Positions 15,517-17,292 of a stretch of DNA of 37,097 nt are shown one piece after another. The position numbers and the translations under genes were made by a program. Numbering within the stretch: position 1 is the first letter of the stretch; each line of letters begins with the position of its first letter. Source of the DNA: an uncultured Erysipelotrichaceae bacterium (GTDB lineage Bacteria; Bacillota_I; Bacilli_A; RFN20; CAG-826); assembly GCA_900317295.1 (NCBI GenBank), contig ONGB01000006.1, positions 1-37,097 on the forward strand, read 5' to 3'. The notes below the pieces were generated by a model, which ran no database searches, was not told the DNA's origin, and was given only the letters and a program-made list of their open reading frames with translations.

Positions 15517-15999
15517 TTATTGGTTATAAACGGAACTTAGGTATTCGCCGACGAGGGAGGGATCGAAGAAGTGGGAGAAATCCCCCAAGAAGTCGAAGGA
15601 GGCCATATCGGGATAGGTGTGCGCGATTGGAAAATCGACGGGGACGCCGGAATCGAGGTTATCGCCTTCCCTATTGGGTAGGCACAAATAGGAAGACCGG
15701 ACATAAGGAAGGCCGTCCGCCCCCATTCCTAATAAGAAACGGGCGTTCGGAGGATTTTGGTGGCGAGCAGCCTTTTTCTCCCCGATTCCGCAATTCTTTC
15801 AGAGCCCTATTTGTTTGCCTAGGAAAATCACAACGCTTTTGTCCGGTTTTCCCCGATAATCGAGGCCATTTTCTTTAATAAGAAAGATCGTCTTGAAATC
15901 ATGGCCCATAGCCCCTAAGATATCACCGCCGAACGAAAAGCCGGACATCAAGAAGCGCCTCCGATAGCGTAACCAGGGCGCTAGCAACTCCGTGAACAC
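15517..15999 (-). pseudogene. Possible decayed gene with in-frame UGA
   Basis: Two stretches in one frame (15799-15999 and 15517-15798) are separated only by a UGA at 15799-15801. The second part, from about 15750 down, reads like real protein (FLLGMGADGLPYVRSSYL, FDFLGDFSHFFDPSLVGEYL) and the first has a plausible segment (DFKTIFLIKENGLDYRGKPD). The N-terminal end overlaps the metK riboswitch and is probably not coding. There is no start codon with a ribosome site. UGA is a normal stop in neighbouring genes, so a decayed gene is more likely than recoding. I do not recognise the family. A related fragment may lie near 13440-13500. Confidence 0.35.
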
Positions 16000-16098
16000 G
16001 GTAAGTGCTCGCTATAGCCTCTCCCCACAAAGAGGAACGATGCCTTGCGGAAGTCTCCTATCGAAAGATGACCTTCCACCTTGTGGGAGGTTTTTCTT
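15943..16098 (+). ncRNA. SAM-I-like (S-box clan) riboswitch upstream of metK
   Basis: The aptamer at 15943-16044 can be drawn directly. P1 pairs GGACATC (15943-15949) with GATGCC (16039-16044), one bulge. ATCAAGA enters the junction as in S-box RNAs. P2 pairs AGCGCC (15954-15959) with GGCGCT (15977-15982). P3 pairs AGCAACT (15983-15989) with AGTGCT (16004-16009), the GCAAC...GUGC core of the SAM-I clan. A pseudoknot joins the P2 loop ATAGCG (15964-15969) to CGCTAT (16010-16015). P4 pairs CCTCT with AGAGG (16018-16035). P2 is short, with no room for the usual kink-turn, so a SAM-I/IV-type variant is possible. An antiterminator (GGAAGTC with GACCTTCC) competes with the terminator at 16072-16098. 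The predicted output is that SAM turns metK off. Confidence 0.82.
16072..16098 (+). terminator. Riboswitch-controlled intrinsic terminator
   Basis: The stem CCTTCCAC/GTGGGAGG (one T-G wobble, loop CTT) is followed by TTTTTCTT, 21 nt before the metK ATG. Its left arm is shared with the antiterminator formed with 16049-16055. Confidence 0.88.
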
Positions 16099-16119
16099 AC
16101 CTCGGCAGGAGGAATCAAT

Positions 16120-17292
16120 ATGAAAGAGAAAAGACTTTTCACCAGCGAATCCGTCTCCGAAGGGCATCCCGATAAGGTCTGCGATCAGATCTCGGACGCC
16201 ATTTTGGACGAATGTCTGCGTCTAGATAAGAACGCCCACGTGGCCTGCGAAGTCTTCGCCACCACCGAAAAGATCGTCATCGGCGGGGAGATCACCTGCG
16301 AAGGCGCCGTCGATTTCGAAGGCATCGCCAGGAAGGTACTCCGTGAGATCGGCTACACCTCCCCTGAAAAAGGCATCGGCGCGGATACCTGTCAGATCGA
16401 AGTGCTCGTCAAGAAGCAATCCCCCGACATCGCGATGGGGGTCGACCGCGGCGATCCTTTGGCTCAAGGTGCTGGGGACCAGGGCATCATGTTCGGCTTT
16501 GCCACCGACGAAACCGAAGGCTATATGCCTTTGGCCTTATCGATCGCCCATAAGCTCGTCCGCACGGCGACGATCCTTAGGAAATCGGGCGAATTCAAAG
16601 ACGCGCGGCCGGACATGAAGAGCCAAGTCACCATCGATTACACCGATCCCGAATCCCCAAAAATCGATACCCTATTGATGTCGATCCAGCATGACCCGGA
16701 TGTCGATTTATCCGCGTTCAAAAAATATGTGGAAGAGCAAATCATGGACCCCGTGGCCGCTTCTTTCGGCTTTGCCAAGGGGTACCGGGTCTTTATCAAC
16801 CCGACCGGTAGATTCGTCATCGGCGGCCCCGCGGGGGATACCGGGCTCACGGGAAGGAAGATCATCGTCGACACCTATGGGGGCTATGGCCATCACGGGG
16901 GTGGCTCCTTCTCCGGGAAGGATCCCTCCAAAGTGGACCGTTCCGCCTCTATGTACGCCCGCTATATCGCGAAGAACCTCGTCGCCGCCGGGGCGGCCTC
17001 CAAGTTGGAGGTCGAACTCTCCTATGCGATCGGGGTGGCGGAACCCTTATCCATCTCCGTCGAGACCTTCGGCACCGCGAAGATCGATGAGGACATCATC
17101 TTGCGCGCCATCAAGACCTTCTTCGACGCGAGGCCGGGGGCGATCAACGCCGCCTTCCACCTCAATGAACCGACTTGGAAGTATTCCGATATCTGCAATT
17201 ACGGCTGCTTCGGGCGCCCGGATCTCGATCTCCCTTGGGAGAAATTAGACAAGGTCGCTTCGCTTAAAGAATTCTTCGCCAAGCAAGCATAA
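16120..17292 (+). CDS. metK: S-adenosylmethionine synthetase
   Basis: A 390-residue cytoplasmic enzyme that makes SAM from methionine and ATP. FTSESVSEGHPDKV is at the N-terminus, GAGDQG is at 117-122 and GGGSFSGKDPSKVDRSA at 260-276; the first is the ATP-binding signature and the last the phosphate-binding loop. Length matches bacterial MetK. The start at 16120 was chosen because AGGAGG lies 6 nt upstream. An upstream in-phase frame from 16081 would begin inside the terminator hairpin. Expression is predicted to be controlled by the SAM-sensing leader. Confidence 0.97.
   Translation: MKEKRLFTSESVSEGHPDKVCDQISDAILDECLRLDKNAHVACEVFATTEKIVIGGEITCEGAVDFEGIARKVLREIGYTSPEKGIGADTCQIEVLVKKQSPDIAMGVDRGDPLAQGAGDQGIMFGFATDETEGYMPLALSIAHKLVRTATILRKSGEFKDARPDMKSQVTIDYTDPESPKIDTLLMSIQHDPDVDLSAFKKYVEEQIMDPVAASFGFAKGYRVFINPTGRFVIGGPAGDTGLTGRKIIVDTYGGYGHHGGGSFSGKDPSKVDRSASMYARYIAKNLVAAGAASKLEVELSYAIGVAEPLSISVETFGTAKIDEDIILRAIKTFFDARPGAINAAFHLNEPTWKYSDICNYGCFGRPDLDLPWEKLDKVASLKEFFAKQA

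Follow-up and report, generated by a model that had tools for sequence, protein, structure and literature searches.

Riboswitches of the SAM clan provide the frame in which the RNA described here has to be placed. For the SAM-I (S-box) class, Rfam family RF00162, a kink-turn has been described as conserved (PMC2258182), and its complete removal from a model SAM-I RNA rendered SAM binding no longer detectable; the motif was called essential (PMC3651934). SAM-I/IV RNAs (RF01725) possess an unbroken P2 and the pseudoknot PK-2 and are devoid of PK-1 (PMC6890682; PMC2864571), and SAM-IV RNAs (RF00634) combine a P2a/P2b turn with PK-2 and P5 and lack P4. The spermidine riboswitches, a variant of the SAM-I lineage, are sometimes found at metK and work as terminator-based OFF switches (PMC10853860).

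The window, by which we mean the entire 37,097-nt stretch of contig ONGB01000006.1 from an uncultured Erysipelotrichaceae bacterium, carries on its forward strand, where its other features given below also lie, an RNA with four helices, a pseudoknot between the P2 loop and J3/4, and an intrinsic terminator (15941-16098). It is positioned directly 5' of an intact metK gene (16120-17292) encoding a SAM synthetase of 390 amino acids with the Pfam S-AdoMet_synt N, M and C domains; among named genomes, the closest MetK is that of Candidatus Alloenteromonas pullistercoris (Bacillota; 75% identity). A sigma-70-like promoter, TTGAAA-17-TAAGAT (15893-15921), was the single hit of a consensus scan for which 0.2 hits were expected. 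P1 is formed by GGaCAUC (15943-15949) and GAUGCC (16039-16044) with one bulged A, and is followed by J1/2, AAGAA (15950-15954). P2 pairs GCGCCU (15955-15960) with GGGCGC (15976-15981), and from within its loop AUAGCG (15964-15969) forms PK-1 with CGCUAU (16010-16015) of J3/4. P3 with the SAM core GCAAC ... GUGC (15983-16009) precedes the P4 hairpin CCUCU-CCCCACAA-AGAGG (16018-16035; arms 16018-16022 and 16031-16035). The expression platform consists of the putative antiterminator strand GGAAG (16049-16053), the terminator hairpin ACCUUCCAC-CUU-GUGGGAGGU (16071-16091; arms 16071-16079 and 16083-16091) and a U-run (16092-16098). Hence, the four-way junction, pseudoknot, GCAAC...GUGC core, terminator and antiterminator that a first-pass annotation had drawn by eye could all be located. 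P2, described there as a helix of 6-7 bp with a 17-nt loop, has 6 bp including a terminal U-G pair; its loop measures 15 nt, and opening of the U-G enlarges it to 17 nt.

With SAM-I this RNA shares P1, the GCAAC/GUGC core in P3, the J1/2 sequence AAGA, P4, the topology of PK-1, the metK target and a terminator-type expression platform. It differs from SAM-I in that P2b and the kink-turn are absent, P2 being one short helix whose loop enters PK-1 directly, and in the covariation between its P4 loop and the terminator. An uninterrupted P2, the SAM core and P4 are held in common with SAM-I/IV, which, however, has PK-2 in place of PK-1; the SAM core and PK-1 are held in common with SAM-IV, in contrast to which our RNA has a single P2, possesses P4 and lacks PK-2. 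The combination of PK-1, P4 and a plain P2 thus fits none of the three classes.

No SAM-clan model matched this RNA, neither in the window at the curated Rfam thresholds nor in the leader at E<=10, and whole-genome scans with RF00162, RF01725 and RF00634 (E<=10) returned nothing at this metK leader. RF00162 did match two other places in the same genome, among them a canonical kink-turn SAM-I RNA (L001). When 56 homologous metK leaders were scanned, 7 passed the RF00162 cut-off and 16 gave a match at E<=1, and other SAM-clan families were never the best match; where relatives pass, their alignments mostly leave the P2b/kink-turn positions of the model unfilled. The SAM-clan scan that the first-pass annotation had proposed as a means to overturn its assignment therefore gave a divided answer, with this copy unmatched and seven homologues above the cut-off. 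Most metK riboswitches of this lineage, the present copy included, escape Rfam-based annotation. Since some relatives pass the RF00162 cut-off, the RNA can be regarded as derived from SAM-I and not from SAM-IV or SAM-I/IV; this bears out the annotation's option of a lineage-specific variant, and from the sequence comparisons we have high confidence in the fold and in the SAM-I origin of a variant mostly missed by Rfam.

A covariance model of our own, built from 52 copies, matches this site alone in its genome (82.5 bits, E 4.8e-17), a score to be read as that of a training member, as the window copy was included. Across 90 distinct aligned copies, standard pairs occupy 92.8% of the pair cells and double changes occur in 24 of the 29 pairs (P1, 8/9; P2, 6/6; P3, 5/9; P4, 5/5), so that covariation is seen in all four helices of the SAM-I-type four-way junction. 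None of 500 shuffles reached the observed covariation on any measure, and shifting the partner column by one lowered pairing to 32-36%. This alignment was fitted to the covariance model and is biased towards the structure; the test of PK-1 is free of that bias because the model does not contain the pseudoknot. PK-1 scored 13.4 when each strand was tested against its own partner, and 10.0 after partners had been swapped between genomes (sd 0.22; best of 200, 10.6). It is 5 bp or longer in 62 of 76 leaders, and across the lineage spans 4-8 bp with P2 loops of 10-18 nt. The covariation check advocated beforehand thus yielded abundant compensatory changes in P1-P4 along with a covarying PK-1, and on these comparative grounds the structured RNA at 15941-16098 is real, far beyond chance. 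Single-sequence folding of the window RNA was uninformative (z -1.57) and would not have revealed the structure.

From the family, 90 metK-like loci were drawn, two of which (L030, L083) lie at or too near contig ends. The RNA precedes metK in 84 of the 88 readable leaders, which lends comparative support, together with the covariation, to the original proposal of a SAM-clan riboswitch upstream of metK. The complete motif was found by a strict pattern in 83 of the 90 loci, and the covariance model added one further locus (L087). Of the four readable loci without it, one has a leader that lacks the core (L089), two are second copies of a metK-like gene (L090, L091), and the fourth has a K-turn SAM-I RNA (L092). 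In the order, the model matches 100 of 147 genomes, with a single copy in nearly every genome matched; matches outside the order, at class level, were left out of the membership count because they are mostly SAM-I RNAs retaining P2b. The 3' gene was read for 18 order- and class-level matches; it is metK in 17 of them and, by appearance, an ABC transporter ATPase in the remaining one (L263). In one genus-level group (f1 g33; L080, L082, L084, L087), P4 is lost or nearly lost, with PK-1 and the core kept.

The kink-turn is missing from this metK RNA throughout the family. A simple in-house scoring, which asked for a P2b helix with the geometry of a kink-turn and a 3'-side GA, was positive in 0 of 81 family metK leaders, a result in line with the short P2 without kink-turn noted at the outset; applied to 23 other SAM-I RNAs of the family, it was positive in 22, and applied to 20 metK leaders of other families, in 12. 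In neighboring families (f2, f7, f8) and in the Erysipelatoclostridium/Longibaculum group, the metK leaders have P2b, mostly with the kink-turn signature, and P2b and kink-turn are also absent in one f5 leader (L266) and perhaps in one f4 leader (L267). The lineage has lost P2b and the kink-turn, with PK-1, a pairing backed by comparison, presumably being reached straight from the P2 loop without a bent P2. Our literature search, which covered few subscription papers, found no description of a SAM-I RNA with PK-1 but without a kink-turn. Barrick and Breaker anticipated undetected extreme structural variants of such kind (PMC2258182). A whole family of gut bacteria apparently runs its metK switch without a motif called essential in the model RNA (PMC3651934), and these natural leaders make both the route to PK-1 and the dispensability of the kink-turn testable. 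As a separate observation, the small genomes (about 1 Mb) of family f11 carry SAM-I-like RNAs with a K-turn-like P2b at metK (L258, L261, L264, L265), which score low with our model (31-51 bits).

We assign a probability of roughly 0.87 to the reading that this RNA belongs to the SAM-I lineage and acts as a SAM-sensing riboswitch, repressing metK by transcription attenuation; judged from sequence, the RNA 5' of metK very probably senses SAM and turns the gene off. SAM would sit between P1 and P3 via the unchanged SAM-I core, and its binding would stabilize P1 along with PK-1 and P4. With P1 held, the terminator would form and transcription would end ahead of metK, an OFF logic suggested by the anatomy. 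When SAM is scarce, GGAAG, just after P1, would capture the 5' arm of the terminator, and the P4 loop CCCACAA (16024-16030) would capture the terminator loop and 3' arm, so that metK would be transcribed.

Both of these pairings covary in relatives, among which terminators were found in 68 of 80 leaders. GGAAG pairs with CUUCC (16073-16077), and the corresponding score is 12.0 for own and 10.77 for swapped partners (sd 0.21); the strand starts 4 nt past P1 in the window, and P1 and the antiterminator are therefore not strictly exclusive. The P4 loop is complementary to UUGUGGG (16081-16087) in the terminator loop and 3' arm, and relatives present CCCAGAA/UUCUGGG, CCCAUAA/UUAUGGG, CCCACC/GGUGGG and CCCACU/AGUGGG. 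Over 66 leaders, this pairing scored 15.6 with the own partner vs 13.0 with swapped (sd 0.28) and 10.95 with shuffled ones (sd 0.30); restricted to Watson-Crick pairs and unique loops (35 leaders), the values were 14.6 vs 11.8 (sd 0.38; best of 500, 13.1). Of 49 strong cases, 47 have the partner within the loop or the 3' arm of the terminator; members whose P4 loop is short do not show the pairing. An equivalent test of P3 against downstream sequence was flat (12.35 own vs 12.25 swapped, sd 0.26), which tells against kinship or composition as the source of the signal. In the window, the two pairings would together occupy both arms of the terminator, and we infer with moderate confidence that the P4-loop pairing is part of the antiterminator, acting with the post-P1 strand. 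To our knowledge, P4 is a passive helix in known SAM-I RNAs, and in the literature searched, with few subscription papers covered, we found no P4-loop/terminator pairing described.

A tentative alternative, to be taken seriously, is that this complementarity serves a contact made while SAM is bound, or arose neutrally from selection on the terminator. P4 is intact with a free loop in the SAM-bound aptamer, and geometry consequently does not restrict the contact to the SAM-free state; yet the partner includes the GGG of the terminator stem, so that the contact is in competition with the terminator and, were it formed with SAM bound, would work against an OFF switch, and the complementarity covaries with the own leader. 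If the antiterminator role of the P4 loop is confirmed, the pairing would constitute an added link between aptamer and expression platform. We consider the odds evenly balanced that the RNA represents a fourth SAM-clan architecture, with the SAM core, PK-1, P4 and a plain P2, no kink-turn or PK-2, and a P4 loop doubling as an antiterminator strand; P4 would then take part in the switch. The novelty is limited, as RF00162 already picks up some members above its cut-off and the literature coverage is incomplete.

The equivalents of the SAM-contacting nucleotides U7, G11 (within J1/2), C44, A45, A46, C47, U57, G58 and A87 do not vary among 83 copies, and the A6/U88 equivalent is A-U in 78 and G-C in 5 of these. 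This conservation bears on the improbable case that the fold was kept and the ligand changed, as happened in the spermidine riboswitches (PMC10853860). That class, with one tested example at metK, sets a precedent within SAM-I, and the RNA studied here has diverged enough to evade Rfam in a genome that holds a canonical SAM-I RNA elsewhere. However, the spermidine class altered its SAM-contacting nucleotides, whereas here the contacts are invariant, or the pair is kept, and it is P2 that changed; this disfavors a switch to spermidine, as does the controlled gene, the SAM synthetase itself. Similarly improbable is that metK is controlled mainly at translation: a mainly translational SAM-I switch is known (PMC7270179), and the Shine-Dalgarno sequence AGGAGG (16107-16112) starts 9 nt after the U-run, but the window has a good intrinsic terminator with a U-run, and terminators are present in most of the related leaders. 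Least probable of all is membership in SAM-I/IV, an option raised by the first-pass annotation and abandoned here, or in SAM-IV: the uninterrupted P2 is a SAM-I/IV trait (PMC2864571; PMC6890682), but scans of 10 genomes at E<=10 with RF01725 and RF00634 returned none of the metK leaders, a P3/3'-flank pseudoknot equivalent to PK-2 was rejected on the flat P3 result given above, PK-1 is present and covarying, and P4 is present.

Some further observations concern single positions and neighboring RNAs. The base just 5' of the P1 3' strand (16038) is C in 83/83 copies, the SAM-I consensus being A, as in A85 of T. tengcongensis, a position that is one of the two partners in a long-range contact described for SAM-I RNAs (PMC2258182); the invariant C hints that this tertiary contact has changed. 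Folded as a whole, the leader reaches its energy minimum (-52.2 kcal/mol, in a computation that takes no account of pseudoknots or SAM) in a structure that pairs the aptamer 5' strand with the terminator 3' arm and U-run and differs from both states drawn above. It was dropped because, by reading of the alignment, the P2 5' sequences of relatives are too different to form it; possibly, it serves as an extra antiterminator in this genome. The canonical kink-turn SAM-I RNAs of the family (L001 and L093-L121, minus the metK loci) precede genes mostly of unknown function. The 122-aa protein encoded 3' of L001 in the genome studied here (contig C15) has no Pfam match, and those encoded 3' of L097, L111 and L121 resemble AAA ATPases by eye.
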